Shown here one piece after another: positions 3,997-33,160 of a DNA stretch of 57,628 nt (positions are counted from its first letter, which is position 1; each line of letters opens with the position of its first letter). Source of the DNA: Planctomycetota bacterium (GTDB lineage Bacteria; Planctomycetota; Phycisphaerae; Sedimentisphaerales; Anaerohalosphaeraceae); contig VRUI01000024.1 of assembly GCA_019456225.1 (NCBI GenBank), forward strand, positions 1 to 57,628, in the 5' to 3' direction. The translations under genes were made by a program, and so were the position numbers. The notes beneath the pieces were generated by a model. It ran no database searches and was not told the origin of the DNA. It saw only the letters and a program-made list of their open reading frames with translations.

Positions 3997-4017
3997 TACG
4001 CAGAATAGAAATAAAAT

Positions 4018-6503: not shown

Positions 6504-6528
6504 CGGCAAAATTTAAGGAAAATTTATT

Positions 6529-7647: not shown

Positions 7648-7724
7648 TAATTGTGACAGGTTTAAAGGTTAATTGTGGTGGTGCGGATGGCTCTGCTATC
7701 CGTGCTGCCTAAGGAGTTTTGTTT

Positions 7725-8498: not shown

Positions 8499-8500
8499 TT

Positions 8501-11009: not shown

Positions 11010-11013
11010 TAAT

Positions 11014-11736
11014 ATGACTGGTTCGCAAATTTTAAATGTGACTATGATAAGGCTCGGGACGGGCTCCGGTGTCACAAGTATCAATACAGAGCTTGACGGC
11101 GTCCTTTACGACATTACGAGTCGAGCCGACTTCTATACGGCTTTATCTACGTTCGATACGGTCGCCGATCAATACGAGTATGATGAGCCCGATGCACTCA
11201 AGCGGATTTACGAGTGTTCGATTTCCGGGCTGGGTCTGCTTGAGAAAAAGACTTATCGCGACTATCTCAACGCTGTTGCCGACGGTAGTGCTGCTACTCC
11301 GGGCGAGCCTTTATATGTTGCCCGCCGTCGTGGCAAGCTTTATGTTTGGCCGGTTCCCGGTCAGGTGTATACTATCGAAGTTGATTATGCCAGTTATCAT
11401 CCTTCCGTATGGTCTGAAATTGCCCTTGGGCCTGAATTCCATGAGGCGATTTATGAGGGTGTTCTGGCCGCTCTTTATCGCGGGCAGTTGTTTGAAAAGC
11501 TTCGTCTGAACAAGAAAAATATCAGTGGCGACAACCTCGATGAATTTGTTTCGGACGGCACAAACAACACTGTTACGGATCAGGATTTAAAAGGCGAATC
11601 ATTGGAATACTCTTTCGATAATACGTTCCCTGAAATCAAGCGACACGCGCAGGCGTACGAGAGAGAAATTAGAAAGCTAATCCAGAATCTTGATATGGAT
11701 ATTGAGACGGTGCTTGTTGAGTACCGCGATATTTAA
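11014..11736 (+). CDS. head-to-tail connector / adaptor-like protein
   Basis: A 240-residue protein; GGAG at 11002-11005 sets the ATG at 11014. The N-terminal half is helical, and the central segment PLYVARRRGKLYVWPVPG followed by YTIEVDYASYHP resembles the adaptor proteins that plug onto short-tailed-phage portals. It is the last gene of the + strand structural block. The tail genes expected next are absent; a structured non-coding stretch follows instead. Confidence 0.6.
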   Translation: MTGSQILNVTMIRLGTGSGVTSINTELDGVLYDITSRADFYTALSTFDTVADQYEYDEPDALKRIYECSISGLGLLEKKTYRDYLNAVADGSAATPGEPLYVARRRGKLYVWPVPGQVYTIEVDYASYHPSVWSEIALGPEFHEAIYEGVLAALYRGQLFEKLRLNKKNISGDNLDEFVSDGTNNTVTDQDLKGESLEYSFDNTFPEIKRHAQAYEREIRKLIQNLDMDIETVLVEYRDI

Positions 11737-12208: not shown

Positions 12209-14371
12209 TTATACTTCATTTTCAGAGTTCGAGGAATCGGTTTCTAAGTAATTCAAAAGAGACCCGATAAGTTGGCCCCAACGAAGCTGAATTTCTTTTA
12301 CTAAAAATTCGTGCATTGTCGATCGCGAACCGTCTTCAAACCAACCATACGTCCAATTCCGAATGTCTGACTTGTACCCTGGTCCACCTCCCCACCTGCT
12401 TTGACAATCTCTCCAGTACTCATATTCTGCCCGTAAGGGTTCAGCAAACATTGTTTCACCAAGCTGCTCTACATCCACGAATAAAAAGGTGGATGCTTCC
12501 TTAATTTTAATTAAATACTGACGGAGAAATTCATGCATTTCCTCAAGATCAGGATCATTCAGTGAATTTTCAATAATTCCTTCGAGCTTGGTAAACTGTT
12601 CCTTGGAATGAGCTACTACATCACACCTCACTCCATAGCCTAAACTATGCCAATAATCAAAATTGTGCCAATTACCGCGACGATTGACGGATGCCCTGAG
12701 GCTTGATGCGTACCGCAGCTGATCCATATCCGCAAGAAGTGCTTTGTCCGCCCGATGCATTTGCCCCTTCAATGTACCGTTTGAGGTGAGCCATATCCGT
12801 AAAGGATTTATCGCTTTCTCAAAAACTGCACGCGATTGCTCGTCGGCCTTGTTTCTGATCAGATAGTCTACTCGATCGGACAAAAGATCTATCTGAACTG
12901 CCATCTTGTCCCGGAGGTCGATTACTGAATTTAGCATAAAAGAACGAATTTGGCTGCAATCCTGTTCAGATTGAACATTCAAAAACTCTATATGCATCTT
13001 TTGAACATTTAAACTTGTCATGGTCGTTGTCCTTACTTGGTCGAGACGGATTTCTCTGCCCTCATCCCAATCGCTTACCGGTTCCCCGGTAAAATCGCTA
13101 AGAACCGCGGCTTCCTCTCCGCCTTTTGGGAGAATCAAAAGTCTCCCGCGACTGATTATCGAATCTCGCAAGCCTCCATCAATTGCCCGTTCAATCAACT
13201 TCTGAACAGCGGCATTCGGCGCATCATTAAAACCAGAACAAAAAACAACTAAAGTACGGTCATCATCCAAATAGGATTGTAAATCCCGTCGTGGAGCAGA
13301 CTCTTCATCAATGCCCCTGGTATCAATAAGGCGTATATTGAGATTATCAGAATCTAATACTTTGCTTGGAATCGAAACCTCAATGCGTTTAGGCAACGAA
13401 AACTCCGAATGATGCCCAAAGTTGATTTCACGAAATGTTTTAGAAATCCATTTGATTGCAGGAATGGATGTCATCGACGGATAACTAATCGAGGTACGCT
13501 TCCTTTTGGGAGCGTTGTACCGCGACAGTAGCTCGACGGTTAGTTCCTCTTTTTTAGGATATTGCTTAACTAAGTCCAACGCAGGATCTTCGGTTTTAAA
13601 TTTGCCGTCAGGCAACTTATGCTTCTTGATAGTAAGTCCTGAAAGATTGCGAAGCGTTCGCACAATTTCAGCGCTAATACTGGAGCCGCCTTTCTGTTTA
13701 TTACCCAGATCGTCACTTGCAAGATTAAGTAAAAAGTCACAAAAATCAGAAATATGGTAATTCAACTCCTCCTCTGAGCAGGGCTCGATTGATATTGCGT
13801 ACTCGCCCCCGCGGCGAATGTGAACCTCGCAAATAGTCGTACGACCCGAACCGGTTTGTAGTCCCATCTGGCGATTTAAATCTTTTTCTTTTTTATCACG
13901 TAAAACATCCGTTAAAGAGCAAACCGCAGTGGTTTTTCCGACACCAAGACTCCCCATAAACGCGATAGAATGCTCTGTGGAATAGAGGAACCCTGCTGCT
14001 CGTCGCAGTTCTTCCTCGCATAACTCCACTTGCTTAAGAAACACGTTTTTCAATTCGGGATCTTTTTTAAGTTCATTTAACCTTTGTAAAGCCTGCTCGG
14101 CTTTCCATAGATCATTTGAATTTGGATGCTCAAATGCGGGAACATCCAACACGCTCCATTCTTGGCTAAGGTAAGACGTTAAAGAATCTGCTTTGTCCGT
14201 ACCGATAGCTTTTGCGATAGCACTCGCTTCCTCTGGATCCAAATATATATCACCTGATTCTAAACGAGAAATACGACTTGCTGTGAATTTAAGGCGGCCT
14301 GCCAAATCCGACTGAGACAGTTTGGATTCTTCACGAAGTTTCTGGAGTCTTTTACCTAATGTCATGTTCAT
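12209..14371 (-). CDS. HTH-fused dynamin-like GTPase, defence candidate
   Basis: The protein has 720 residues and AGGAG lies six bases before the start. Residues 1-60 are a classical XRE/Cro helix-turn-helix (KLREESKLSQSDLAGRL, then ISRLESG). A P-loop GSLGVGKTT lies at 140-148, a switch-I-like TT at 178-179, and a G3-type DTRG at 350-353 within LIDTRGIDE. The rest is long, charged and helical, as in dynamin-like or other large GTPases. No clear NKxD is seen. It is transcribed against the phage genes and sits between two copies of a conserved RNA-like element. The HTH and the palindrome upstream suggest self-control. Large GTPases with extra domains occur among anti-phage genes, but that role is inference. 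Confidence 0.75.
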   Translation of the reverse strand: MNMTLGKRLQKLREESKLSQSDLAGRLKFTASRISRLESGDIYLDPEEASAIAKAIGTDKADSLTSYLSQEWSVLDVPAFEHPNSNDLWKAEQALQRLNELKKDPELKNVFLKQVELCEEELRRAAGFLYSTEHSIAFMGSLGVGKTTAVCSLTDVLRDKKEKDLNRQMGLQTGSGRTTICEVHIRRGGEYAISIEPCSEEELNYHISDFCDFLLNLASDDLGNKQKGGSSISAEIVRTLRNLSGLTIKKHKLPDGKFKTEDPALDLVKQYPKKEELTVELLSRYNAPKRKRTSISYPSMTSIPAIKWISKTFREINFGHHSEFSLPKRIEVSIPSKVLDSDNLNIRLIDTRGIDEESAPRRDLQSYLDDDRTLVVFCSGFNDAPNAAVQKLIERAIDGGLRDSIISRGRLLILPKGGEEAAVLSDFTGEPVSDWDEGREIRLDQVRTTTMTSLNVQKMHIEFLNVQSEQDCSQIRSFMLNSVIDLRDKMAVQIDLLSDRVDYLIRNKADEQSRAVFEKAINPLRIWLTSNGTLKGQMHRADKALLADMDQLRYASSLRASVNRRGNWHNFDYWHSLGYGVRCDVVAHSKEQFTKLEGIIENSLNDPDLEEMHEFLRQYLIKIKEASTFLFVDVEQLGETMFAEPLRAEYEYWRDCQSRWGGGPGYKSDIRNWTYGWFEDGSRSTMHEFLVKEIQLRWGQLIGSLLNYLETDSSNSENEV

Positions 14372-14427
14372 TTTAATCTCCTGAGATAGATATTAAATTT
14401 GCTTGCTGTTTCTATTACATATATACG

Positions 14428-14445
14428 GCAAATTTTGCTATTTGC
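14428..14445 (-). promoter_or_regulatory. palindromic operator over the GTPase gene promoter
   Basis: GCAAAT at 14428-14433 and ATTTGC at 14440-14445 form a perfect inverted repeat with a 6-base spacer. Read on the - strand, it overlaps a TTGCAA-N16-TATATA promoter candidate about 60-75 bases before the GTPase start. This is a fitting site for autorepression by the protein's own XRE-type domain. Confidence 0.45.
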
Positions 14446-14650
14446 AAAGAAAAAAATCTGCAAGGCGTGCAGTTTCGCTGCTGCTGTCTACGCAAGTGCT
14501 TTCTTGAAAGACACTTAGGTGAAAAATAAATTTTTCAAAAAACTGAAAATTATGGAAGAAGTGTTTATAAGGGGACAATATATGCCCAAATGGCACAACC
14601 GGTGAATGCAATAAACTATTAAGATCTAAAATGCTGAACGTAATCAGGGA

Positions 14651-14698
14651 CTGGCGGACGAAGCCGCCCGAAGACTCGGATAGACTTTATTATTTATG
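14651..14698 (+). repeat. 48-base conserved element, copy 2
   Basis: Second copy of the element at 12105-12152, in the same orientation. Here the front part can form GGCGG/CCGCC with a 6-base loop. The rest of the 14372-14785 spacer holds the - strand promoter region of the GTPase gene and small hairpins (for example CTGC/GCAG near 14459-14473), but no gene. Confidence 0.65.
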
Positions 14699-14712
14699 AT
14701 CGACAGTGGAAG

Positions 14713-14747
14713 GCTGGGCACTCTGGATTCAGGGGCCCAGCTTTTTT
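14713..14747 (+). terminator. rho-independent terminator after conserved element copy 2
   Basis: GCTGGGC at 14713-14719 pairs with GCCCAGC at 14735-14741 and is followed by six T on the + strand. No + strand gene lies upstream, so it implies a + strand RNA running through the 48-base element, antisense to the spacer between two - strand genes. Confidence 0.65.
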
Positions 14748-14785
14748 AATAATCCAGTTTGTGTTAATTTCTGTTTGAACAATGA

Positions 14786-16468
14786 TTATACAGAAAAAGA
14801 CTCCTCTATGAAATTGCGAATATCTGAATCATTTGCGTCAACGCAAGCTGTAATGAGTTTTTGCATGGTAAGATTTGAACCAGTAGCAAGGCGAAAAAAA
14901 CCTCTCAATTTTTGAAGGGCATTTTTTCCTTCGATAATTTTGTGTCGAATATTCTTATCAGCCCAGCGCTTCTCGAATTGCGGTGTATATTTTTTTGTAA
15001 TCGTCTTGGTATCAAGTCTCGACGGTAGAAATTGGTCATGTAAAGTTAGGTATGAGCTATATGCATCCAATCTATTAGCCTCGAACACTTCCTCCCAAAA
15101 TACTTCAAAATCCGAGTAGTGTCGATTTGGAATAAGGTTTTTGAGCACTTTTGGCGAAAGGAAAATGTTTTCAATTTCTTTACCAGGGGTGTATACCGTA
15201 ACGATTTCATTCTTAGCAAGATTTCTCTTTGCTTTTGCCAAGTAAACATCTGGATAGTAGTCACGATCAAGAACTACTCTGTGTGGCGTATCATTACCGA
15301 TAAGCAACTTATAAGCGTCACGGTAATTAATGGCTTTAGGATACTGACTGAAACCATGTAATGGGATATTGAACACTTTAGAGCGAAAACCGAAGGCAAT
15401 CGCTAGCTTTTGAATGATTTTGAAGTCGCTAACATCTTCTGTAAACAAGATTAGGTCTACAGCTTCAAATTGAGAAGCAATAAGATTAAAATTACTTCCG
15501 ACTTGAGAACGGACAAGATTAAGGTTTGTACGATCAGTAGTTTTCTTAAGAGTGGGCTTGGAGTTTCTTTTTTGAACGTGAATAATGTGACTTACGTCAA
15601 CGTTGTTCATTAATTCAGCCGAGTGTGTCGCAATTATGACGCTTCCTTTGTGATGTTCCTTTAAAACTTGTACAAGGTCATTTTGCTTTTCGGCATGTAA
15701 GTTAACTTCTGGCTCATCAAGTACAAGGACTGAAGAATTTCGAAGTCTTATTAGATGGGTAATAAGCTGAAACCATACTTGTAAACCTTGACCTGCCCAT
15801 GCCAGCTCTCTCTCCATCCGTCCTTCCATAAAGAAACAGGTTAGAGAATTTTCGTCTAAATTATGAGAATAATCCATAAGCCTAATACTTGGCCAAGTTG
15901 CCTTAATGATTTCTTGCACCATATTATATTCTTCTGAGTCCAGGATTTGAACAAGGTGGTTACGTAGATGGCGTGGGGAGAGACTTGTGTTGATACTTGA
16001 TTTAATATGTGTTAGTCCAAGAAGATCTTCAGTCTCAGCCAATGGCCCGAGAGGAGGAATAAATCCTAAAAGATCTGTTAAATTGCTTGGAATCCTGCCA
16101 TTATAATCAGCGTATATTAAATCTTTATTTTCATTGAGGTGTACTGTAATCGTAAGATTATTTTCGAATATGCCTTTTATTTTAGCATGTTCTCCAGAGT
16201 AATTATGTAGCATTCTTCCAATTTTAATCCCTTGAACATCTTGTTGGGGAAGTTTAAAGTACTCGTTGTCATCAATTATTGTATACATATTTCTTCTTCC
16301 AACTGATCTGCAAGCAGAGGACAGTAGCTTAAGAGCAAGAATGATATTTGACTTTCCTTCATTGTTCTTGCCCGTCAGAAGAACACAGGCTGGCTCATCT
16401 TCTGTAAAGGTAATGTCGTATCTTCTGAAAGGTCCAAAATTATCCAATATAAGTCTTTTGATTTCCAT
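14786..16468 (-). CDS. OLD-type ATPase with TOPRIM-like nuclease domain
   Basis: A 560-residue protein. The N-terminal ABC-like ATPase has Walker A GKNNEGKS at 33-40, a signature-like AGQGLQ at 225-230, Walker B VLVLDEPEVNLH at 247-258 and a switch histidine in IIATHS (about 278-283). The C-terminal part has E344 in LFTEDVSDFK and a DxD at 401-403 (VVLDRDYYPD), matching the acidic residues of a TOPRIM nuclease domain, although the usual glycine after the glutamate is replaced. This is the OLD family layout, ATP-regulated nucleases that often act in phage exclusion. No UvrD-like GajB partner is adjacent; the DUF2075 helicase lies 8 kb away. Confidence 0.78.
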   Translation of the reverse strand: MEIKRLILDNFGPFRRYDITFTEDEPACVLLTGKNNEGKSNIILALKLLSSACRSVGRRNMYTIIDDNEYFKLPQQDVQGIKIGRMLHNYSGEHAKIKGIFENNLTITVHLNENKDLIYADYNGRIPSNLTDLLGFIPPLGPLAETEDLLGLTHIKSSINTSLSPRHLRNHLVQILDSEEYNMVQEIIKATWPSIRLMDYSHNLDENSLTCFFMEGRMERELAWAGQGLQVWFQLITHLIRLRNSSVLVLDEPEVNLHAEKQNDLVQVLKEHHKGSVIIATHSAELMNNVDVSHIIHVQKRNSKPTLKKTTDRTNLNLVRSQVGSNFNLIASQFEAVDLILFTEDVSDFKIIQKLAIAFGFRSKVFNIPLHGFSQYPKAINYRDAYKLLIGNDTPHRVVLDRDYYPDVYLAKAKRNLAKNEIVTVYTPGKEIENIFLSPKVLKNLIPNRHYSDFEVFWEEVFEANRLDAYSSYLTLHDQFLPSRLDTKTITKKYTPQFEKRWADKNIRHKIIEGKNALQKLRGFFRLATGSNLTMQKLITACVDANDSDIRNFIEESFSV

Positions 16469-16523
16469 TGTTTCGTCCTAATACCTTTAATTATTGCTTG
16501 TGTTTACATTCTGTGCAGAGAGA

Positions 16524-17744
16524 CTAAGGGATATATGCAATCTTATTATTTCCCAGGAGGCGGGTTGTTATCATTGCTGCTATGGTGTCGCCTGAGGAGT
16601 TTATCATTGTTGCTATCGGGTCAACCAGCACGCCTAGCATTGAAATGATCGGTAAGGCCTCAAGGGGAAAGCCGTAAAAAGAGACGATAAGAGCCTCGCC
16701 CAAAAAGCCTCCGCCGGGGATGCCGCTCATTACTACTCCGCATAAAAGTGATATTCCTATCGCACTGGCATAAGTTTCTATGCCGGTAAATTCTTTCCCG
16801 AATATTGAAAACAGTACCGCAATCTTCAGGATCGCTGCCAGGCAGGAGCCGTCCATATGGATAGTCGCACCAATTGGCAATACGATCTCCCGGACATCTT
16901 CTGGTACCCCAATACGTTTTGCAGATTCAAGGTTAGCCGGTAATGCCGCCAAACTGCTGCCAGTTCCCAAGGCTGTTAGTGCTGCCGGAGGGATGTGCGT
17001 CCAAAAGCCTCTGACGCCTTTGCGGCCAGCTGCAGCGAATGCGTATATGGAAAACACTATCACAAAGTACAATGCAGCCACGGGGTAATACAACGCGACT
17101 ACGCGGGCGTAAGAAGACATAAGCTGTGGGCCGAACACACCGACCAGGTAAGCGAAATATGCTCCAAGCCCTATCGGGGCGTAATACATTATCAGTTTGA
17201 TAAGTTGACCCATTACCTCTGCACCTGAAACAAGGAACTTCCGAAACGGCTTGCCCTTTTCTCCGGCTGCTTGTGAGGCAAGGCCGATCAGAATTGAAAA
17301 GATCATTAAGGGCAGGATATTATGACGGCTGATAAGGTTCGGGAAATCTTTTACGGAGAATGTGCTTACGATCTTTTCCGGCAGGCTGACAGGTTCATTA
17401 GCTTCCTGCTTAGTCAAGTCCAGATCAAGGCCATCTGCCGGGTCAAAAGTTTTTACTGCAAAGATCATTATGCAGGATGAGATTATTCCTGTAACGATAA
17501 AGACCGCCAGCATCAGACTCGCCATGCGGCCCAGCCGCTTTAGATCGGAGTTTGACGCTATGGCCGATGACAGCGAAAAGAATACCAGCGGAACTACCGC
17601 GGTAAAGAGCAGGTTCAGGAATACATCGCCTAGCGGTTTTAGGCTCTTCGCTTGAGGGCCGATCTTATGACCAAGCAGAGCACCGGCTATTACTGAAAAG
17701 ATAAGTATAAGAGTGAAACGCCATTGTTTTAGTTTTTTTTTCAT
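16524..17744 (-). CDS. dicarboxylate/amino acid:cation symporter (DAACS family)
   Basis: A 406-residue membrane protein with eight or so hydrophobic segments and the family's re-entrant loop motifs: a serine-rich stretch (TALGTGSSLAALP, about 265-277), GATIHMDG near 299-306, and an SGIPGGGFLGE segment before the last helix. It would import C4-dicarboxylates, glutamate/aspartate or related solutes with Na+ or H+ across the inner membrane. Length is normal. A symporter is unusual inside a prophage-like element. It lies 200 bases upstream, in genome order, of the ABC permease end and may be transcribed separately from that operon. Confidence 0.85.
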   Translation of the reverse strand: MKKKLKQWRFTLILIFSVIAGALLGHKIGPQAKSLKPLGDVFLNLLFTAVVPLVFFSLSSAIASNSDLKRLGRMASLMLAVFIVTGIISSCIMIFAVKTFDPADGLDLDLTKQEANEPVSLPEKIVSTFSVKDFPNLISRHNILPLMIFSILIGLASQAAGEKGKPFRKFLVSGAEVMGQLIKLIMYYAPIGLGAYFAYLVGVFGPQLMSSYARVVALYYPVAALYFVIVFSIYAFAAAGRKGVRGFWTHIPPAALTALGTGSSLAALPANLESAKRIGVPEDVREIVLPIGATIHMDGSCLAAILKIAVLFSIFGKEFTGIETYASAIGISLLCGVVMSGIPGGGFLGEALIVSFYGFPLEALPIISMLGVLVDPIATMINSSGDTIAAMITTRLLGNNKIAYIP

Positions 17745-17946: not shown

Positions 17947-18753
17947 TTAAACCTGAAATGGTTTTTTGCTTTCATAGTGCCATGGAATTACGGCTCTCAT
18001 TATCACAAATAGTATCGCTCTCATGAAAATCGCTAATAATGCTATCAGAAGCACTCCTCCAATTACTCCAGGTATATTGAATAGACCACTAGATTTTAAA
18101 ATTTGGTAACCAAGTCCTTTTTCAGCTGAAATGAACTCGCCAATAAAAGCGCCGACTAGTGAAAGACCTACAGTAATTCGAAAGGAAGTTGCTACTGAAT
18201 TGATAGAAGACGGAAAGATCACTTTAGAAAAAACTTGCTTCTTGGAGGCACCAAAGCTATTTAATAGCATGATGAGTTCTGGGTCGCTTTGAATCGCTCC
18301 TGTATAGGCATGTTCAGTGGCGACAAAAATTGTGGATAGCATTGCTATCATGAACTTTAATAGGAATTGAATCCCAAACCACATGATTGTTACTGGGGCT
18401 AGAGCAAAAATAGGGATAGCTCCAAACATAATAATGTAGACTCTAGTTATTCGTTCGATACGTGGAAAAAATGCCAATCCAAGTCCTAAACATATTCCTA
18501 ATATATTCCCCACTATAAACCCACTAAAAGCTTCTGACGCGGTAATCAATATGTCACTAACTCCATTGTCATAACAAATATAATTAAACAAGTATTTCAA
18601 GACAAGAGTTGGAGATCCAAACAAAAATGCGAAACGAGAAGAGTTTCTAGCGGCTAATTCCCAAAGAAGGCAGGCAAACAAAAAGGGCATAATCGCAATT
18701 AATGTTTTAAAGACAGCAGCCTTGTTTATTACTGGTGTTCGTTTTTTTTTCAT
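17947..18753 (-). CDS. ABC transporter permease, NitT/TauT (SsuC/TauC-like) type
   Basis: A 268-residue inner-membrane protein with about six hydrophobic segments. It contains the EAA-type coupling loop, seen here around LLNSFGASKKQVFSKVIFP (about 163-181). It overlaps the ATPase gene by four bases (ATGA), so the two are co-translated. It would form the membrane channel of an importer fed by the lipoprotein SBP encoded upstream. The family moves nitrate, sulfonates, taurine, thiamine precursors and similar small molecules; the substrate here is unknown. Confidence 0.85.
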   Translation of the reverse strand: MKKKRTPVINKAAVFKTLIAIMPFLFACLLWELAARNSSRFAFLFGSPTLVLKYLFNYICYDNGVSDILITASEAFSGFIVGNILGICLGLGLAFFPRIERITRVYIIMFGAIPIFALAPVTIMWFGIQFLLKFMIAMLSTIFVATEHAYTGAIQSDPELIMLLNSFGASKKQVFSKVIFPSSINSVATSFRITVGLSLVGAFIGEFISAEKGLGYQILKSSGLFNIPGVIGGVLLIALLAIFMRAILFVIMRAVIPWHYESKKPFQV

Positions 18754-19559
18754 TCTGCCAGTGCTCCGAGTACTAGTTTCTCATAAGACGAAAATTCAGG
18801 CTCTGTCCTTGCGATTACAGGATCTCTCCCAGCACGATCTGAAGTAAATGAAATTGGTTCATCTAATAAAATTTCTGTAGGCTCAGAATTATGAGACCTT
18901 CTACTTAAGACAACGACACGATTTGCTACTGCAATTGCCTCGATAGGGTCATGAGTGACAAAAATCATAGTTCTTTCTTTTTCGTGAACAAATTGCAGCA
19001 TCTCCTTTTCAAGGAAATGTTTTGTATGGTAGTCAAGGCCTGAAAAAGGTTCATCTAGTAATAAAATACTTGGGTCGTATAGCATAGTCCGCATAAGAGC
19101 AACTTTCTGACGCATACCCCCCGACAACTCCTTAGGGTATTTTTCTTCATCATGATTCATTTGAAATCTTTGGAAATAACCGGACACCTTGGATAAATGG
19201 TCCGTGGTAATTTTTTTACCCAGCATCTCAAGACCTAATAGAGCATTGTTTCTAGCCCTCCGCCAAGGGAGAAGACGGTCATTTTGAAACATGTAACCAA
19301 TTCGCTGATTCGTTTTAATTCTGAATTTCTGGGGATCAGCTATTTTGTCTATACCAGCAATAATGTTAAGTAGTGTTGTTTTCCCGCACCCGCTAGCACC
19401 AAGTATTGAAACTTTTTCTCCCTGATTGATTTCAAGTGAGAAGTTGTCAAAAACTACTTCAGACTTGGCTTCAGTGCCATAGCTTTTAGACAGGTTGTAT
19501 ATTCCCAATAACTCCATCTTTCTGTCTTTACTTGAGAATCTATTTTGATTCATATTCAT
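18750..19559 (-). CDS. ABC transporter ATP-binding protein, NitT/TauT type
   Basis: The protein has 269 residues. Walker A GASGCGKT lies at 54-61, Q-loop Q92, signature LSGGMRQ at 145-151, Walker B ILLLDE at 165-170 and the switch histidine H203 in FVTHD. All catalytic residues are present. The start could also be the methionine at 3 or 15; the first is used because of the short gap to the SBP gene. It powers the permease encoded next to it. Confidence 0.9.
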   Translation of the reverse strand: MNMNQNRFSSKDRKMELLGIYNLSKSYGTEAKSEVVFDNFSLEINQGEKVSILGASGCGKTTLLNIIAGIDKIADPQKFRIKTNQRIGYMFQNDRLLPWRRARNNALLGLEMLGKKITTDHLSKVSGYFQRFQMNHDEEKYPKELSGGMRQKVALMRTMLYDPSILLLDEPFSGLDYHTKHFLEKEMLQFVHEKERTMIFVTHDPIEAIAVANRVVVLSRRSHNSEPTEILLDEPISFTSDRAGRDPVIARTEPEFSSYEKLVLGALAE

Positions 19560-19592
19560 TACCTATCTATGGGGCATTAAGAGTTTCTCTGG

Positions 19593-20615
19593 CTACGGTA
19601 TCTCTGCTATAGCTTTATTTGCATAAGTGATATCGACTGATTTTGAATAGTCTTGAGTTTCTTTCAAATCCCCTACAGCAACTCTTGTGGAGATTGCCGA
19701 ACGCCAAGAGTTTTCAGACACCATAACAGAAGTAGGAAAAGTTTTTTCTTGCAGCATACGATTTACCGCTTTTTTTAGAACGACAGTATCAAGTGAAGGA
19801 AAAAGCTTTTCAGCAATTTCTATGACTTCTTTTGGATGACTATGACAATATATCATGGCTTCCTGGAGACCATTAACCATTGACTGTACTATTTGCGGGT
19901 GCTTGCTATTAAAATCACCGCTTGTTGTTAAGCCGGTAAAAGCAAAGGATCCATAGAACTTTGGCGAAGAGAAGACGATACGATAACCTTCTGATTCAGC
20001 TTTTGAGGCTGATGGTTCGAGAACCATTGCAATATCTACAAGTCCTTTTTCTAATAGTGCAATTTGTGACCCAATCGGGGCCTGAACAATTTTTGTAGAT
20101 TCAAGTTTCTTTCCGCCTGAGATTATCGTTTCATTCATAAGTGCATAGTTTGTCGAAGGTGACGGAAATGTCCCTATCCTAAGATTAGAAAGATCTTGTT
20201 TGGATGTTATAACGGGAATATCTTGGCGATTTGTTACACCCCATATCGCCACTCCGTCTACTATACTTGCTACAACTTTCCCTATGCCTGGCTCTCTCTC
20301 ATTGGCAATTGCTGTGAATACGGGATCACCAATTCCAAAGTTTGCCGTGCCTTGGATAACTGAAGCAAAAACTTGATCATCATTTCCAGAAAATTTGAGA
20401 TTAATATCTAGCCCCTGGGCTGAAAAGAAATCTTTTTCTATAGCAACATAGAGAGGTAAATAGATAAGATATTTTTCTTGTCCCCATTGTGCAATTACAA
20501 CTTTCGTTAAATCGTTAGGTTTGGATTTTCTACATGAAACACATATCAAAGTAGTTATGATAAGCAATAAGCAAATAGCAGCAAGGGTAAATAGATTGTT
20601 TTTTTCTTTTTTCAT
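19593..20615 (-). CDS. substrate-binding lipoprotein of the ABC importer (NMT1/SsuA-like)
   Basis: A 340-residue protein with a hydrophobic leader (about 9-26) ending in a lipobox-like ICVSC, so probably a lipid-anchored binding protein outside the inner membrane. AAAGGA lies seven bases before the start. The mature part has the NMT1/THI5-type signature IYLPLYVAIEKDFF near the N-terminus and GTANFGIGDP around 110-120, typical of NitT/TauT binding proteins. The gene lies 43 bases after the ligase-like gene and 33 before the ATPase gene. Its sequence is visibly related to the second domain of the radical SAM protein encoded two genes upstream. Confidence 0.85.
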   Translation of the reverse strand: MKKEKNNLFTLAAICLLLIITTLICVSCRKSKPNDLTKVVIAQWGQEKYLIYLPLYVAIEKDFFSAQGLDINLKFSGNDDQVFASVIQGTANFGIGDPVFTAIANEREPGIGKVVASIVDGVAIWGVTNRQDIPVITSKQDLSNLRIGTFPSPSTNYALMNETIISGGKKLESTKIVQAPIGSQIALLEKGLVDIAMVLEPSASKAESEGYRIVFSSPKFYGSFAFTGLTTSGDFNSKHPQIVQSMVNGLQEAMIYCHSHPKEVIEIAEKLFPSLDTVVLKKAVNRMLQEKTFPTSVMVSENSWRSAISTRVAVGDLKETQDYSKSVDITYANKAIAEIP

Positions 20616-20658
20616 ACGGTTTTCCTTTCAATGTAAACATTATCATTTTTATTTCAAG

Positions 20659-21645
20659 TTATATGAAATCCTTCTTATTTCCAAACTGAGCAAGAAATGC
20701 ATAGCCTAGTCTACTGATTCCAATTCCAACGCACCCACTTTCTATTGCGAAATTAGTCCCAGAAATATTGAAAGCCTTTGTGAGCTGCTCCCCCCAAAGG
20801 CTAGCTCCCAGAATTTCTACCCAAGTATCACTCTCAGGCAAGTATAATTCAACATCCAAAACAGGTATGTCGATTATTTTCTGTGTGGCTCTGAGTTTTT
20901 CAATCAAAAGATTTTCTTCAATTTCAAAACATCCATTACCTACGATGACTCTGTAACAAATTCCAAAATTGTCAAGGAATTGGCAAAAAGCGTTAATAAG
21001 CTTAATTCTTAAATATTTAACATCGTGAGCAGTACTAAGAAAAACATATTCATTGCGTAGAAATTCAACTGCCTTTAGTACTGGACGTAAAGAGTTACGC
21101 TTTTCATTCCGATATGTCCAACCACCCAGTTCCTCTCGAAAACAAACAGGTAACTCACTTTTATTGAAAGTTCTATCTGCAAGATATGCGTATGCTCCAG
21201 CGCACTGCAATGGATCGAGTATTCGCTTTTCAGAATCTTTATCAATGGCCTTTACTTCTTTGCTAGAGCAAAATTTATCTACCGATAAAAGGATATATGG
21301 CCAAGAATTAAGAAGGCCAAAGCGTTCAGCAATGTCGATAGTAAGAAGCCTAGGAAATGCCATCTCGAGAAAATTACCAAAAGGATCAATCAGGAGTTTC
21401 TGTCTAATTGTGTGCATTAAGTTACAGAACGGAGGCAAATAAATATCTCCGTAGTTACTGTTTTTTATCCAATGCTTTTCGATTTCTGTTCGTTTTATCC
21501 CCATGAATGGTTTACTATTCTTGTGTAAGAAAAGAGTCTCACCTATTATGAAGCCCGAATTAGTTTTTTGACAAGTTTGCATGCCATTAAGAAGGCTATC
21601 AACATGGTTATTTGAATTATTTTTTGGATTCGAGTTAAGGGTCAC
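20659..21645 (-). CDS. class II synthetase-like amino acid ligase (SerRS / amino acid:carrier protein ligase type)
   Basis: The protein has 328 residues and a GTG start that overlaps the radical SAM stop (GTGA). Motif 2 is seen as PVCFREELGGW (166-176) and motif 3 as GIGISRLGYAFLAQFG (307-322). C168, E199 (in RNEYV) and C305 (in SGCVG) are placed as the three zinc ligands of amino acid:[carrier protein] ligases and of methanogen-type seryl-tRNA synthetases. DVELYLPESDTWVEI (264-278) is SerRS-like. There is no tRNA-binding arm, and the length equals the carrier-protein ligases, which adenylate an amino acid and load it on a phosphopantetheine carrier. No carrier protein is encoded nearby, so the acceptor is unknown. 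Recognition of the zinc triad rests on my memory of the family. Confidence 0.7.
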   Translation of the reverse strand: MTLNSNPKNNSNNHVDSLLNGMQTCQKTNSGFIIGETLFLHKNSKPFMGIKRTEIEKHWIKNSNYGDIYLPPFCNLMHTIRQKLLIDPFGNFLEMAFPRLLTIDIAERFGLLNSWPYILLSVDKFCSSKEVKAIDKDSEKRILDPLQCAGAYAYLADRTFNKSELPVCFREELGGWTYRNEKRNSLRPVLKAVEFLRNEYVFLSTAHDVKYLRIKLINAFCQFLDNFGICYRVIVGNGCFEIEENLLIEKLRATQKIIDIPVLDVELYLPESDTWVEILGASLWGEQLTKAFNISGTNFAIESGCVGIGISRLGYAFLAQFGNKKDFI

Positions 21646-23723
21646 AAGCTCCCATCCTTTCGCCTTTTTATTGAGACAAAAAAGGTACCAAAGGTTGCCG
21701 CCGAGAGACTTGCAGTCACTGCCGCTATAGATACCGTAAGGTTGGGGTAATAAGGGGGTTTTTTGGAGTACTGCCAGAAAGATACTATTGATATTGCAAG
21801 CAACAGAAGGGCAAAAAGAAAAGTATGTAATGGCTTTGAATTAAGAATCCAACTCCAAAAGCAGATAACCGGTCCGAAGAACCTAAAGAAGATATTAGAA
21901 CGGGCGTTCACAAGAGGAATCTTCATGGGATAACAAACACTGAAAAAGGAACTTGACACCATTTTTTTTAAGCTAGTAAATCGGACTCTAAAAGCATTTA
22001 ATAGTTCTTTTGTTTTCACATTACCAGTAGTAGAATAAATTTTAAGAAGTTCAATTTCTTTTATTGCCGAGTGGATTGCTGAGTTCAGCTTATCAGTAGA
22101 ACACTTTTGGGGACGAAAAGGTTTTCTGGTATTATATTCATTGAGAATATATTCTGTCAGTTTGCCGCGATATTTATTCATGTAATTCTTGTCATAGAAG
22201 AGCCTGATCGCTTCCTGTAGGGCCGAAATGACTCCCTCTACTGCACCTGGATATTTCTCTATTACTTCGCGGCTTGCAAGCAATCCTGTAAAAAGAAAAT
22301 TCTTTCCGATTCTATTCTTTCTGTCTGCATAAGATCCGGAAGCAAGTTTATGTTCTTTACAAGTCATGGTACATAATTTTATGCCTAAAATATCAGCTGT
22401 AATAACGCAAGCTGACCGACCAGCCTTGACACTTTGGCAAAATGCGTTTATCTCATTCCCAGGTTCTACAGCTTCAAATTTTTTAGCTTTAAGGTTTTTG
22501 GAATTATATTTTTTTTTCCATTGCCAAATATAATTGGCTGTTGAACCGGATTCATAAGTTATTATTTTATCACTCTGCATGATTGCATTGTGAGGTAACT
22601 GCTCATCCCCTTCAGCGAGAGTCCACAATGCAAGTCGATTTATTAGTACAGATACAAGTTTCGGTTCATTTTTTGGATCAAACTCAACATCTGACGGTAA
22701 AGATGAAATGGCCTCAACGGCAGCTTGAGGATCACAGATGGCAAATTGAGCATTGCCAGTAAGTATTGAATCTGCAGCCCCTAAGTCTCCGTCTGATGAT
22801 ACCATCTGGTTAACCTTAACGCCGTGCTCCTCAAACAATTTTTCATAGTCAGCTATATAAAGCGGAAGATATATAATCGAATTAACAGCAGAACATAGAT
22901 CTACATTAACATAGAATGGACTCGAGAAAAAAAATTCGGGTATAAACGTATTTTTTCGGAAAAGAGTTAGTATATCACGCTTTAGTTCATGGAAATCAAA
23001 AAAAACATCAGGTTGAAATTTTGATCCTTCAAACTCCAGTTCATATAGTTGAAGTTCTTTTGGATTTATTTTCTTAATAGCCTTTGACCACTGGTCCCAT
23101 GATGAATCAGATTTGCCATGAGGGAACATAGCAGTATGCAGGATTACTTGACAAGATGAGCTTTTGGCTTTTGCTAGAGAGACAAAAGCTTTTGTTTTTG
23201 CAACACAATCGTCATATGCCAAAGTTGATGTTGGACGTGAAATAGCTTGAAATTCCTCATTAGAACACCAATCAAACTTAATAAAAACTTTATCAAAAAG
23301 AAGCAGAGTTTCCTGAATTTCAGATTCGTGTAGTTCAGTACCGTTTGTGAAAATTGCAAGCTTAAGGTCGATAGCTTCTTTTTCTTTCCAACTTCTCACA
23401 TCCTTTACAATTTGTGAAAAATTCGGGTGTAGTGTAGGTTCTCCATTTCCTGAGAAGGTCAAAAAACGAGCAGTATTTTTTAGAGCGTGTCCTTCCTTAT
23501 TGAAAAAAATATCTAACTCATCACCAATATTATCCATCGAATATTTCGAAGGATCTGCACTTCCTTCGTGTTTAAGAAAGCAGTAAATACAATCCAAAGA
23601 ACACACTTTATTTACACCAGGAAATAAATTGATGCCTATTGAAGACCCAAGCCTTCTGGAAACCACAGGGCCATAAACAGGCTTTCTTTGACGTTCATCA
23701 AATTTTTCAACTTTTCTTCTCAT
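21642..23723 (-). CDS. radical SAM enzyme fused to an NMT1-type binding-protein domain and C-terminal membrane segments
   Basis: The protein has 693 residues. Residues about 15-265 form a COG0731/TYW1-like radical SAM domain: GPVVSRRLG at 18-26, cluster cysteines C41, C45 and C48 (CX3CX2C), and SGNGEPT at 91-97 for SAM binding. Residues about 275-565 form an NMT1/SsuA-like binding-protein fold (IYLPLYIADYEKLF; GNAQFAICDP). FLFTGLLASREVIEKYPG matches FAFTGLTTSGDFNSKHPQ of the operon's lipoprotein SBP, so the two are paralogues. Two or three hydrophobic segments lie at about 622-685. There is no signal peptide, and the radical SAM domain must be cytosolic, so the binding domain is predicted to be cytosolic as well. 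It is the first gene of a tightly packed five-gene operon. Reaction and ligand are unknown. Confidence 0.82.
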   Translation of the reverse strand: MRRKVEKFDERQRKPVYGPVVSRRLGSSIGINLFPGVNKVCSLDCIYCFLKHEGSADPSKYSMDNIGDELDIFFNKEGHALKNTARFLTFSGNGEPTLHPNFSQIVKDVRSWKEKEAIDLKLAIFTNGTELHESEIQETLLLFDKVFIKFDWCSNEEFQAISRPTSTLAYDDCVAKTKAFVSLAKAKSSSCQVILHTAMFPHGKSDSSWDQWSKAIKKINPKELQLYELEFEGSKFQPDVFFDFHELKRDILTLFRKNTFIPEFFFSSPFYVNVDLCSAVNSIIYLPLYIADYEKLFEEHGVKVNQMVSSDGDLGAADSILTGNAQFAICDPQAAVEAISSLPSDVEFDPKNEPKLVSVLINRLALWTLAEGDEQLPHNAIMQSDKIITYESGSTANYIWQWKKKYNSKNLKAKKFEAVEPGNEINAFCQSVKAGRSACVITADILGIKLCTMTCKEHKLASGSYADRKNRIGKNFLFTGLLASREVIEKYPGAVEGVISALQEAIRLFYDKNYMNKYRGKLTEYILNEYNTRKPFRPQKCSTDKLNSAIHSAIKEIELLKIYSTTGNVKTKELLNAFRVRFTSLKKMVSSSFFSVCYPMKIPLVNARSNIFFRFFGPVICFWSWILNSKPLHTFLFALLLLAISIVSFWQYSKKPPYYPNLTVSIAAVTASLSAATFGTFFVSIKRRKDGSL

Positions 23724-24094: not shown

Positions 24095-26074
24095 TTAAAT
24101 GACAGGAAAACCTATGCTTTCTAGATATTCGAAAATTGGATTGTAAAATTCTGGCAATCTGGTCGGGTCTTCGGGATCGCCTGGAGGGACTACTATTACC
24201 ATTCCTTGACGGGCTCTTGTTAATAATACCCGGTAGGCATTTTTTAGATACATCTTCCGCTCCTCTTTTCTGATTTTTGTCCAGCGGCTGCCCCTAAACG
24301 AGCGATGATCCCAACCATCATTCGTAAATCTAAAATCTGCATCCCAGACAACACAAGACCAGTCTAGCTCTAAACCTTGCACGTGGAATTCGGTAGCGAC
24401 ATCTTCCAAATAATATGAAGAACGAACATCTTGCTTGTTATTTAAGAACCAATGAATAGGGTTTATTGGCGATTTCACATGGATTGCATGAGGTCTGAGC
24501 CTTTCGGCTTGTGATGAAACGACAATCCCATACCGCTCTGAACCGCGGGCCTGAGTTTTTAGCCATTTCTTGGCTTTTTTAAGGTCTCTGGTGATAACTA
24601 CCGGGTATTTTTCAATCTTCGGAAGAGTCTCTCTTGCGCCGGATACATCCATGTCAAGTATCTGTTTAACCAATAAAGATACATGTTCAGCCCGGAAGGA
24701 CCGCATAGAAACGCCAAGATGCAGTTCATCTTTATAAACAACATTTGACCGGGATTCTAATTCTTTAAGGACCTCACCAGATCCATATTCGCTATCAGTG
24801 AGTTTTGGCGACAGATGAATATGCCAGTCTGGATAAGTCTCCTGTAGAGTTTTGATCCATTCTGCGATACCAGCTTCACCGGTGTTGATCTCCTGACCGC
24901 CGCCAACCAGGCAGACCACTACAGCCCAATCATCATGACGGTCGAGGCAGGAAATTAAAAAATCAGGCTCAGACTGATTAAAATCAGGCATCTTCTTCTT
25001 GTTTTTCATGAAATTCGAAGTTTGTTTCAGAGTCCATGCCCGCTGTGCTTCGTCGAATAAGGCAACATGTTCGATTGGAGGCCTTTCGGTGTCGACAAGG
25101 CAATCATCTCTGAAATGATGGACATTTTGGATAAAGGCCTTAATCTCACTGAAAGCTTCGCCCTTTTTAATCTTATTGCCTCGGGCTTTTTCACGTTCAA
25201 CCTTGTCTCTGACCAATGCTTCACGCAAAACCATTACTAAAGGAGCATTGCCCGAAAGGAATACACTATATAGTTCACTTTTTTCGTCAATATGAGTAGT
25301 TGCGATATTTAGCCCAACCAAAGTTTTGCCTGCACCTGGAACGCCTGTAACAAAGCAGATTGTCTTTTGTGCCCTTTGCTTTGATATTTCTATAGCATTG
25401 GAGATTGCCTGAGATGTTTCCCTGAGATTTATTGCACTTGCATCGCTGCGGGAAATATCTTCTACATTGTGGCCGTTATAAAGAGCCATCGCAGATTCGA
25501 TAATTGTTGGAGTCGGACAATAACGACCGGCTTTCCAATATGAGTAGTCAATTGTTTCACCTTCAGCAAAAAGTAGAACGTTTTCGATCACTTCTCCGAG
25601 AGATTCTGTATTGCTGTTGATGGGGCATAGTAATTTGTCATTCTTCGGAGTTGTTGCTACTGTTACGAAATCCCGCTTTGCCTTGGTTGCAATAAGGACT
25701 GGGGCTACATAGTGGTCATGGCTGGATTCATGGAAATTCTTCAAGTCTAAAGCATAATCCCAAACCTGGTCTATGGCATGTGAGGGGAAATCTTTTTCGC
25801 CGACTTTGAACTCAAGTACAAAGATAACTGCACCGATGATCGCAACTACATCGATCCGCTGACCCATACGAGGAATAGAATATTCAAAACAAACACTACC
25901 CTGACCGCGATAAGGCAAAAGCACATCTTGGAGGATGACGATTTGCTGCTTCCAAGCATCCCGCTGAGTCTGTTCAAGAGCAAACTCGTTGCTGTCTGCT
26001 AATATCCCTAGAATCTCCTGTGGATTTGTATCCAGGAAATTAGCGATTGAATTAGAATAGTATTCCCGTTGCAT
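24095..26074 (-). CDS. PD-(D/E)XK nuclease-like plus DUF2075 helicase
   Basis: A 659-residue protein. The N-terminal domain carries E64, D75 (GQRIDVVAI) and E88-x-K90 (FVLEFKVG), the spacing of a PD-(D/E)XK nuclease core. From about 235 on it is a DUF2075/superfamily 1 helicase: Walker A GVPGAGKT at 244-251, Walker B ALFDEAQR at 338-345, then a sensor-like [14 protein letters not shown] and a C-terminal [13 protein letters not shown] typical of SF1 motif VI. Such nuclease-helicase fusions occur in restriction and defence loci. The gene stands alone, 107 bases from the small gene upstream of it, on the cargo strand. Anti-phage function is inferred, not shown. Confidence 0.82.
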
Positions 26075-26896: not shown

Positions 26897-26924
26897 GTAA
26901 CCTCTATTCATGGAGGAGTATTAT

Positions 26925-28157
26925 ATGTCCCACTATTCGTTAAAATCGTTTCTGCGAAATACCAAAAACTCCCTTCTACAGACATTCTTTGATCGAGAAG
27001 GTGTCATAAGTAATTTCAAGTGGGAAATTAAAGGTGAAGGGGGAAAAGTAAAACCTTTACCTGAGAATGAAGTAAATGCCCTCGCAGAGGAAATCGAGAA
27101 GATCAATTCTGATCGTCGTGTAAAACTGATTAGCAAACTTAAAGATATTACTTCGCTGGCGGACGAAGATATAATTTTTGCGATGATTGACCACGGTAAG
27201 AAACCCAAATACGGCGCTAAGCTGGTTGACGAATTTACTGAAAACGAAATCATAGGCCCCTTTGATAGAGCCATGTGGGTAAATCTACACCATGACGATC
27301 TGTATAAGTATACTCTCAAATACGTACAAGTTATCAGTACAAACGGAACAAGAGATTTTTTGATAGAGAGAAGAAAAGACTACAAGACTAACAAAATCAA
27401 ATTAAATACATTCAAGGATAATGTTGTCAAGCATTATAAAGGCAGGGGACGAGGTGATAAATGTATAATTGACGATTACCATAAGAAAGATGATGATATC
27501 GAACAATATTGTTATTATATCTTCCAGGAGGATAGCGTCAAATCTGTACTTAAGTTCAACGAAAAAGGCGATGACGTTGAAAGAAATCCGCAGCATCGGA
27601 TATTTGAAAACATATTCTTTTTTGAACCTATGACAGGCAATCTTCGCATCCATGCAAGCGGCGAAAAAAACACGGAAAAACTAGCAGACCTTTTCTGTGA
27701 ACACATGTTAGGATTAAAGGTCAGACCAAACCGGGATGCAAATATTTATGATATGTCAGAAATATTAACTAACCCAAGTTTTAAGTTTGATAACGATGCG
27801 ACTATCCACAAAATTCATGTGACAGAAATTGTTTGTGACATGGGCGACAATGAGGAAATCATTCTTAAAACCATAAATAAACAAAGAAAAAAGCTCCTAC
27901 TCCTCAAGAGGTTACATACGGCCGCCAGTTCATATGGGGTTGATCCGAGCAGTGCTGAAATAACAAAGTTAAGATTTCAGGTAGAATTTACAAAGCAGGA
28001 AGGTATTAGAAAGAAAACCCGAACCAGAGAGATCGTTCTGCCCAATAGAACCGATCTGGCAGACGATTCATATGATAATATAATCCGAAGGCATATTGAA
28101 AAGAATTGGAAGTTCAAGAAATCATTGCCCGAAAACAATAGTATTAAGGCTCAATAA
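26925..28157 (+). CDS. protein of unknown function, first gene of the replication module
   Basis: A 410-residue protein. GGAGGAG at 26912-26918 favours the ATG at 26925 over the one 15 bases earlier. The protein is lysine-, aspartate- and glutamate-rich, soluble, and shows long charged helices plus beta segments (for example TLKYVQVISTNG and HRIFENIFFFEP). I see no nucleotide-binding loop, zinc site or DNA-binding motif. It is followed one base after its stop by the next gene, so the two are co-expressed. It might be a phage replication or defence gene; I cannot tell. Confidence 0.6.
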   Translation: MSHYSLKSFLRNTKNSLLQTFFDREGVISNFKWEIKGEGGKVKPLPENEVNALAEEIEKINSDRRVKLISKLKDITSLADEDIIFAMIDHGKKPKYGAKLVDEFTENEIIGPFDRAMWVNLHHDDLYKYTLKYVQVISTNGTRDFLIERRKDYKTNKIKLNTFKDNVVKHYKGRGRGDKCIIDDYHKKDDDIEQYCYYIFQEDSVKSVLKFNEKGDDVERNPQHRIFENIFFFEPMTGNLRIHASGEKNTEKLADLFCEHMLGLKVRPNRDANIYDMSEILTNPSFKFDNDATIHKIHVTEIVCDMGDNEEIILKTINKQRKKLLLLKRLHTAASSYGVDPSSAEITKLRFQVEFTKQEGIRKKTRTREIVLPNRTDLADDSYDNIIRRHIEKNWKFKKSLPENNSIKAQ

Positions 28158-31740: not shown

Positions 31741-31828
31741 TTTTATATTGTATTTATGATGACAGGCGATGTATAATAATGACGGATCGGTCTTGCTGGC
31801 TTATGTCAGGAAAGGAGGTTCGACCATT

Positions 31829-33064: not shown

Positions 33065-33068
33065 ATAA

Positions 33069-33142: not shown

Positions 33143-33160
33143 GTCAAATTGTGAGGGGTA

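Follow-up and report, generated by a model that had tools for sequence, protein, structure and literature searches.

A prophage-borne five-gene block combining a radical-SAM/solute-binding protein fusion, a synthetase-like ligase and a NitT-type ABC importer in a Planctomycetota bacterium

Results

Five tightly packed genes in a low-GC block

The window analysed here is a stretch of 57,628 nt of contig VRUI01000024.1, one contig of a 152-contig assembly. ORF calls and the sequence confirmed five genes on the minus strand at positions 17947-23723, with the coordinates claimed in an earlier note on this DNA. In the direction of transcription they encode a radical-SAM/SBP/TM fusion without signal peptide (23723-21642, 693 aa), a class II synthetase-like ligase (21645-20659, 328 aa, GTG start), an NMT1/THI5-type solute-binding protein (SBP) that is probably a lipoprotein (20615-19593, 340 aa), an ABC ATPase of the NitT/TauT group (19559-18750, 269 aa) and an ABC permease (BPD_transp_1) of the same group (18753-17947, 268 aa). 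The fusion and ligase genes share a GTGA overlap, the ATPase and permease genes an ATGA overlap, and the ligase-to-SBP and SBP-to-ATPase gaps measure 43 and 33 bases; this spacing agrees with the single transcription unit that had been proposed. A promoter scan gave 26 hits vs 20.3 (sd 4.5) in shuffled sequence, and a terminator scan 1 vs 4.8, neither of them informative. An SDF symporter gene (16524-17744), whose start lies 202 bases past the permease gene, was considered as a sixth member and rejected, its composition (GC 48.5%, GC3 50.6%) being phage/host-like.

All five genes have a GC content of 36.8-38.9% and a GC3 of 27.6-33.3%, compared with a GC of 44-49% in seven phage structural genes and 43-55% in ten host genes. 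The block thus contrasts with a mostly higher-GC prophage, although it is not singled out by low GC alone, since the OLD-like ATPase gene (37.2%) and the ORF at 26910-28157 (37.0%) are equally AT-rich. Within the fusion, GC3 is 24.7 for residues 1-235, 30.7 for residues 270-520 and 35.1 for residues 521-693. The AT-rich composition common to the five genes and to the parts of the fusion points to transfer of the block and argues against an assembly chimera, an artefact named in the earlier note. Judged by its composition, the block was apparently gained as one unit. The only flanking repeats found were short and of low identity, several of them A/T runs.

The block is carried by a tailed-phage prophage. 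Plus-strand morphogenesis genes (2338-11736) encode a terminase large subunit (2338-3996), a P22-like portal (4018-5754), a capsid protein (6529-7647) and an SU10-type adaptor (10966-11736), and a tyrosine integrase gene (Phage_integrase, 31769-33022, plus strand) adjoins the 3' end of a tRNA-Asp gene (33068-33143, minus strand). The phage-like mobile setting described earlier therefore stands. The left end of the prophage lies beyond the contig, which stops inside the phage, and a genome search for the 22-base tRNA 3' end, allowing up to 2 mismatches, found a single copy. The cargo region also encodes a Schlafen-group-3 helicase, which scored 958 bits with PDC-S41, a candidate defence family, and an ATPase whose AriA/OLD/GajA-like matches are weaker, 76 bits at best. 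PADLOC returned no match for the SBP, ligase or permease, and generic ATPase models only for the ABC ATPase (best mad3, 99 bits).

A radical-SAM domain joined in frame to a solute-binding domain

The first gene is an in-frame fusion of a radical-SAM domain (residues ~1-235), an SBP/NMT1-like domain (~276-582) and C-terminal TM helices (~609-690). Both Pfam matches are sub-threshold (Radical_SAM 22.6 bits, cut-off 29.5; NMT1 12.2 bits, cut-off 20.5), and the assignments rest on other evidence. The CxxxCxxC cysteines (C41, C45, C48) and the GNGEPT motif at 92-97 are invariant in nine aligned sequences, the fusion and eight relatives; the domain shares 28-34% identity over ~230 residues with relatives that, like the domain itself, we take to be COG0731-like. 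The second domain aligned as a complete SBP in hhalign against a five-SBP alignment that included the SBP of the operon (probability 97.4%, E 1.4e-11, 256 columns), scored 71.5 bits with an HMM built from six SBPs, and is 27% identical to the operon's own SBP (E 5.2e-6). This kinship suggests that the two bind related ligands. With the Pfam results for the other genes, these data bear out the domains that had been assigned to all five.

Relatives of the radical-SAM domain were found in 17 other genomes; their open frames measure 254-342 aa in 16 cases and 547 aa in the last, so the COG0731-like relatives look single-domain. The fusion shares their CxxxCxxC and GNGEPT motifs but carries an SBP domain and TM helices in addition. 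Two other identities were rejected: the NCBIfam viperin model gave 44.3 bits vs a cut-off of 180, and the PADLOC match to pVip reached only 43 bits.

Hydropathy does not exceed 1.45 in any segment of the fusion N-terminal of the C-terminal helices, and a signal peptide is absent. Together with the N-terminal position of the radical-SAM domain, this predicts from sequence that the SBP domain should be intracellular. The fusion was modelled poorly (mean pLDDT 50, the SBP part mostly below 50), and comparison of the SBP domain with the PDB gave no meaningful match.

A ligase resembling a truncated type-2 SerRS

The product of the second gene matches tRNA-synt_2b at 31.9 bits (Pfam cut-off 29.3) and corresponds to a type-2 (methanogen-type) SerRS core without the N-terminal tRNA-binding domain, akin to archaeal SerRS and to amino acid:[carrier protein] ligases. 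Residues C148, E199 and C305, which we take from the SerRS literature to be the Zn ligands, are present together with R179 and R312, presumably the motif-2 and motif-3 arginines; across an alignment of 38 sequences the active-site residues do not vary. Type-2 SerRS gave the best matches in sequence and structure, but the ligase lies far under the family cut-offs: its best NCBIfam match, NF002120, reached 93 bits, compared with SerRS cut-offs of 611 and 489.55 bits. The structure model matched type-2 SerRS 3w3s at Z 27.2 and a Gly:[carrier protein] ligase at Z ~21; as the model was built on SerRS sequences, the SerRS match is not independent. Model residue 31 aligns to 3w3s residue 175, so that the N-terminal ~165-175 SerRS residues are missing, and 75 of 80 archaeal relatives measure 480-640 aa by the longest-start rule vs 328 aa for the ligase.

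It had been suggested that the enzyme is an amino acid:carrier ligase, and the resemblance holds, with the SerRS-like core, the missing tRNA-binding domain and the same Zn ligands found in Bll0957 and NF005479. Membership does not: the ligase scored 22.1 bits with NF005479 (cut-off 357), compared with 393 for a Priestia megaterium protein and 170 and 181 for two Streptomyces proteins. In a midpoint-rooted tree of the operon protein, five plasmid ligases (five of the six plasmid records with ligase relatives were examined) and the first 45 of the 75 SerRS of 480-640 aa (the other 5 of the 80 rows being left out), the operon ligase is placed as sister to the 45 SerRS on a long branch (1.55); the five bacterial ligase-type proteins form a clade of their own (support 100) that excludes it. 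No carrier-protein match was found on contig VRUI01000024.1, and the two PP-binding matches of the genome sit on contigs C61 and C51. By these profile and tree comparisons, the carrier-protein ligases are to be cited for gene 2 as a resemblance and not as its family.

An ordinary NitT-type importer and its candidate ligand

Genes 3-5 form a contiguous, ordinary NitT-type importer with an NMT1-type SBP (77.5 bits), an ABC ATPase (ABC_tran, 99.2 bits) and a BPD permease (BPD_transp_1, 82.3 bits), all above the Pfam cut-offs. The ATPase translation carries Walker A GASGCGKTT, LSGGMRQ and LLLDEP. The SBP has an N-terminal hydrophobic stretch at residues 8-26 and then a cysteine, which makes it a probable lipoprotein, the lipobox being judged by eye. 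Like ThiXYZ, SsuABC, TauABC and SaoXAP, the importer consists of an SBP lipoprotein, one ATPase and one permease, with superfamily matches in Pfam and NCBIfam; unlike them, it is preceded by two enzyme genes, one with a second SBP domain that is predicted to be cytosolic. None of the substrate-defined NCBIfam families (SsuA, TauA, SaoX and partners) came near its cut-off among the rows listed, which for the ATPase were the best 25 of 200.

The SBP profile gave three PDB matches at E 1e-5. One of them is ThiY (3ix1), which binds a thiamin-pyrimidine precursor, a formyl-aminopyrimidine. The SBP also has a weak match to THI13, a THI5-family protein (E 0.0057). In all four plasmid loci opened (of 36 records) the SBP relative has a gene of amidase or acetamidase type close by, and in one of the four thiC as well. 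From these neighbours and the ThiY match, our leading guess is an amide-bearing or pyrimidine-like ligand.

Occurrence of the genes elsewhere

The earlier note looked to co-conservation in unrelated genomes, and here the result was negative: the fusion and the ligase were each detected in 1 of 392 sampled genomes of the phylum, in both cases their own, and the full five-gene set was seen just once across the samples searched. The functional link is thus without backing from co-conservation. The phylum samples of separate searches overlap, so their counts are not additive, and in one profile search the two matching genomes were the two that had supplied the profile. In tblastn the fusion matched six plasmid records and one phage record, through its radical-SAM part and nothing else; the ligase gave no match in phages. 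Scans of viral contigs with the ligase, the fusion, the ligase alignment and two SBP alignments, and of genome contigs with the fusion, revealed no relative, the fusion scans using exact 8-residue patterns that reach close relatives only. The ligase-alignment scan of genome contigs gave 350 relatives, and the 80 listed were all apparently archaeal.

NitT-group importers are present on viral contigs at 24 loci, none of which had a radical-SAM or ligase gene. Three radical-SAM candidates were set aside: a 44% match on a viral contig (L125) is truncated at the contig end and resembles an ordinary COG0731-like gene, a radical-SAM motif (L248) proved to be a regular-expression false positive with no Pfam match, and a TatD/radical-SAM gene (L106) lies more than 6 kb from the importer and was not counted as linked.

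Permease places were found in 46 of 387 phylum genomes, and 20 such regions, several on contigs of 3-10 kb, were opened in addition to that of genome G032. As the radical-SAM profile used (A7) does not detect other subfamilies, the number of radical-SAM genes counted in these regions is a minimum. Elsewhere the genes were found together in sub-combinations only, in G032 and G061, both of which lack the ligase. In G032 an SBP, ATPase and permease accompany a 478-aa protein with C-terminal TM helices and no signal peptide. It contains weak SBP-like motifs in order, scored 8.0 bits with the SBP HMM vs at most 3.5 in 500 shuffles, and matched the adjoining SBP in BLASTP at E 0.011; hhalign against SBP gave a probability of 5% (E 0.0074), and there was no Pfam SBP match. 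This unsecreted, TM-anchored protein may be binding-domain-like, to judge from these motif and profile scores; its gene has a GC of 40% vs 46-55% in its neighbours. G061, the sole block of its kind among the regions opened, carries an NMT1 SBP, ATPase, permease, a PNP_UDP_1 (nucleosidase-like) protein and two radical-SAM genes of a different subfamily from the fusion's domain in a prophage, with a portal on one side and a serine recombinase on the other, at 59-61% GC vs 65-69% in three flanking phage genes.

Discussion

The reading we favour, although we hold it with rather less than even confidence, is a prophage-borne operon that imports and modifies a small molecule. The binding protein and transporter would bring the molecule in; the membrane-tethered binding domain of the fusion would capture the same or a similar ligand at the inner face on entry; the radical-SAM domain would modify it via a 5'-deoxyadenosyl radical; and the ligase would activate an amino acid and attach this either to the product or to a host-supplied carrier. 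The outcome could be a metabolite, signal or antimetabolite of benefit to the lysogen. The packed transcription unit, the shared composition, the related SBPs, the conserved ligase residues and the pairing in G032 argue for this scheme. Against it stand the single case, the weak likeness in G032, the poor fusion model, the lack of a linked carrier-protein gene and the 24 viral-contig importer loci with no radical-SAM or ligase match.

Several other explanations have to be weighed. The block might be conflict (anti-phage or anti-competitor) cargo, its enzymes making a toxic or signalling molecule from an imported or cellular metabolite, with the importer as the source of the precursor or as the sensor of a cue. 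We regard this as unlikely, though it is the alternative to be taken most seriously: the helicase and OLD-like ATPase are defence-type neighbours, and G061 has an analogous block, again lower in GC than its flanking phage genes, but G061 is one case with a different radical-SAM subfamily and could be a chance neighbourhood, and both the PADLOC blanks and the low viperin and pVip scores count against it. The conflict systems of Kaur et al. (2020; PMC7159879) include, in the portion of the text retrieved, radical-SAM and PNPase domains and a two-gene membrane system with TM helices and an extracellular periplasmic-binding-protein domain; that portion showed neither a NitT importer nor a SerRS-like ligase, both encoded by the present operon, nor a cytosolic SBP such as is predicted here, and the terms 'NMT1' and 'substrate-binding' had 0 occurrences in it. 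Plain nutrient uptake by auxiliary metabolic genes, in which the importer and two catabolic or salvage enzymes would serve neither defence nor signalling but handle, for example, an amide or a vitamin precursor of pyrimidine type, seems rather unlikely to us. It would fit the amidase-type and thiC neighbours, the ThiY match and the importers of this group on viral contigs; the block, however, has no recognisable salvage enzyme (amidase, kinase or amidohydrolase), and neither the radical-SAM/SBP fusion nor the synthetase-like ligase suits a simple uptake path.

THI5 and MqnA are binding-protein folds that have turned into cytosolic enzymes. By analogy the SBP domain could itself be catalytic; the fusion would then carry out two successive reactions of a cofactor-like pathway, with a third left to the ligase. 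The cytosolic location predicted from its architecture and the THI13 match of the sister SBP agree with this idea; we consider it improbable, as the domain's matches are transport SBPs, the PDB offered no meaningful match and the poor model allows no catalytic residue to be assigned. More improbable still is a chance pile-up of unrelated genes or a chimeric fusion. A single genome, a fragmented assembly and the lack of a second fusion copy in the collections searched would permit it, while the 4-base overlaps, the similar GC3 along the fusion and the occurrence of one SBP family inside and outside it speak against it.

The import-and-modify reading can be extended to G061. The two blocks might represent an undescribed phage-borne class that makes protective or toxic small molecules, a proposal that is speculative and, in our view, quite unlikely to hold as it stands. 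A NitT-type importer would feed radical-SAM chemistry in both, with the tethered cytosolic binding domain as a hand-over device in the five-gene block; the product would be aminoacylated there and nucleoside-derived in G061. Among the entries that it listed, our literature search found no described system with the composition of the five-gene block, in agreement with the earlier note.

Binding proteins of ABC importers normally work outside the membrane. If the import-and-modify scheme is correct, uptake would be physically joined to radical chemistry via a tethered internal binding domain. The parts can be assayed singly, which makes the idea directly testable. That the mobile block also encodes a synthetase-like ligase would point to a small-molecule pathway spread by phages between bacteria. 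Among human-gut phage records, permease matches were found in 16 and SBP matches in 4.

Architecture of the five-gene block

The window corresponds to contig C60 (positions 1-57628) within a 4.45-Mb assembly of 152 contigs. ORF calling returned the five minus-strand genes (17947-23723) exactly at the positions read in the earlier note, and sequence inspection found them joined by a GTGA overlap, a 43-base gap, a 33-base gap and an ATGA overlap. The permease, ATPase, NMT1 solute-binding protein (SBP) and class II synthetase core score above Pfam cut-offs; both domains of the 693-aa radical-SAM/SBP fusion score below them and were therefore examined by separate comparisons. Residues 1-235 of the fusion align with eight COG0731-like proteins of phylum relatives at 28-34% identity, and C41, C45 and C48 (CxxxCxxC) as well as GNGEPT are invariant in that alignment. 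Residues ~276-582 form a complete SBP domain: hhalign aligned it over 256 columns to five NMT1 SBPs (97.4%, E 1.4e-11), and an HMM from six SBPs scored it at 71.5 bits. A simple protein search of the genome also paired this domain with the block's own SBP (27%, E 5.2e-6). Hydrophobic stretches lie at the C-terminus, at 632-650 (2.19) and 664-682 (1.54), compared with hydropathy peaks of 1.34 and 1.45 at most ahead of it. The AlphaFold model, unusable overall at pLDDT 50, has helices at 609-627, 631-654 and 660-690. Because these stretches and helices are confined to the C-terminus, the SBP domain is predicted to be cytosolic and membrane-tethered. Searched by itself, the SBP-TM part had no meaningful sequence match in the PDB.

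Among NCBIfam models, those of type-2 SerRS come nearest to the 328-aa ligase (93 bits for NF002120 and 67 for TIGR00415), and the one for amino acid:[carrier protein] ligases is distant at 22 bits; all three scores are under the cut-offs. Unlike type-2 SerRS, the window ligase lacks the N-terminal tRNA domain. Aligned with SerRS of archaea and five ligase-type proteins of bacteria, it keeps all three zinc ligands and the two class II arginines. In a midpoint-rooted tree of 51 sequences (45 SerRS, the five bacterial ligases and the window protein), the bacterial ligases are monophyletic with support of 100, and the window ligase is sister to all 45 SerRS on a long branch (1.55), a split listed without its support value. 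Its predicted model (pLDDT 71) matches type-2 SerRS with Z of 25-27 and Gly:[carrier protein] ligase with Z of ~21; the SerRS match is not independent, since SerRS rows entered the alignment behind the model. Ligase relatives occur in six plasmid records, five of which were examined. In the four annotated ones (Priestia megaterium, P. koreensis and two Streptomyces) they are always accompanied by carrier-protein genes (4/4); the fifth, again from Streptomyces, is unannotated. PP-binding matches are absent from contig C60; elsewhere in the genome there are two, one on C61 and the other on C51. On two Streptomyces plasmids (L111 and L113) the SerRS-like relatives of carrier-protein ligases bear the label "hypothetical protein". 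Their clusters also encode a carrier protein, an acyl-CoA dehydrogenase, a 3-hydroxyacyl-CoA dehydrogenase, an acyltransferase and NRPSs, and these relatives look like amino-acid-loading enzymes for an unusual extender unit.

The SBP, ATPase and permease are NitT/TauT-like, with no cut-off reached among the NCBIfam matches listed; the SBP profile has three PDB relatives at E 1e-5, including ThiY, and amidase or acetamidase genes lie near SBP relatives in 4/4 plasmid records examined (36 matched).

Distribution and partial parallels

Full-length fusion was found in its own genome alone among 392 phylum genomes, 17 others matching over the radical-SAM part only. The ligase was likewise confined to its own genome, both among the 392 (E 1e-6) and among 161 order genomes (E 1e-3). 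At E 1e-12 the SBP occurs in 4 of 294 genomes (its own, G032, G156 and G061), and an SBP-TM profile matched 2 of 343, both of them genomes from which the profile was built. Conserved co-occurrence in unrelated genomes, which the earlier note had named as support for a system, thus failed for the whole set. In G156 a G032-type SBP (L107, contig C6, 9174-9764) adjoins a flagellin gene close to the contig end and looks shortened through an internal deletion.

The G032 locus (L106, contig C66) encodes an HTH_3 regulator, an SBP (35% to the window SBP), a 478-aa protein (6548-7984), an ATPase and a permease. The 478-aa protein has no signal peptide, ends in C-terminal TM helices and carries SBP-like motifs in the correct order (8.0 bits vs. 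at most 3.5 in 500 shuffles); its hhalign probability to SBPs is 5%, and Pfam gave no SBP match. Its gene is AT-richer than its neighbours and was seen in 1 of 18 genomes of its order. The protein is taken here as a suggestive analogue of the fusion's SBP-TM half. A G061 prophage operon (L244, contig C84, 4146-13642), all on one strand and flanked by a phage portal and a serine recombinase, combines an NMT1 SBP, an ATPase, a permease, a 527-aa protein that carries a PNP_UDP_1 domain, and a pair of radical-SAM genes of TIGR04038/TIGR04100 type, which score under those models' cut-offs; its GC is 59-61%, vs. 65-69% in three flanking phage genes. Among 20 phylum importer regions examined plus G032, only G061 has radical-SAM genes matching A7, a profile blind to other subfamilies, and none of 24 viral-contig importer loci gave radical-SAM, ligase or PNP matches. 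Because of these counts, the pairing of importer and radical-SAM genes is not a general rule, and the G061 grouping may be a coincidence.

Proposed role and alternative explanations

One block thus holds intact radical-SAM motifs, a complete unsecreted TM-anchored SBP domain, a ligase that keeps its catalytic residues and a complete importer. The importer would bring in a small molecule, the tethered SBP domain of the fusion may capture it, radical chemistry could then modify it, and aminoacylation would be the last step; we put this sequence forward tentatively, as a possible one. It is rather unlikely that the block is instead a conflict system, although a Schlafen group 3 helicase-domain protein of candidate defence family PDC-S41 (958 bits) is encoded directly upstream at 24095-26074, and the cargo region also encodes an ATPase with weaker AriA/OLD/GajA-like matches.

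We likewise think it unlikely that the block is plain uptake cargo. That the fusion's SBP domain is itself enzymatic seems improbable, and an artefact behind block or fusion very improbable: the five genes (GC 36.8-38.9%, GC3 27.6-33.3%) and the measured parts of the fusion (GC3 24.7, 30.7 and 35.1) agree in composition, unlike phage structural genes (n = 7; GC 44-49%, GC3 38-51%) and host genes to the right (n = 10; GC 43-55%, GC3 44-67%), which argues for joint transfer and against a chimera. The parts belong to known superfamilies; no description of the five-gene composition was found in the literature searched, and the fusion with its companion genes matches no described system that we found. 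We rate the five-gene block as a variant of phage-borne metabolic cargo.

Prophage setting

The prophage is marked by terminase, portal, capsid, adaptor and integrase genes and a tRNA-Asp. Its portal has relatives on four viral contigs (69-95% identity), where the ligase, SBP, ATPase and permease gave no tblastn match, each contig being just 6-11 kb. In PHROGs, block proteins match generic families for ABC transporters, permeases, SBPs and radical-SAM proteins, and no family matches the ligase. The remaining minus-strand cargo (12209-17744) comprises a 720-aa protein with an N-terminal HTH, an AriA/OLD-like ATPase (37.2% GC, GC3 31.7) and a dicarboxylate-type symporter that adjoins the block and resembles phage and host in GC (48.5%). 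Since the ATPase and a 415-aa phage ORF at 26910-28157 (37.0% GC, GC3 38.5; sole match phrog_37634) are AT-rich like the block, some of the cargo region may have come from the same source. The chromosomal flank encodes a 1039-aa bacterial LRR-Roc-COR (ROCO) protein at 44294-47413.
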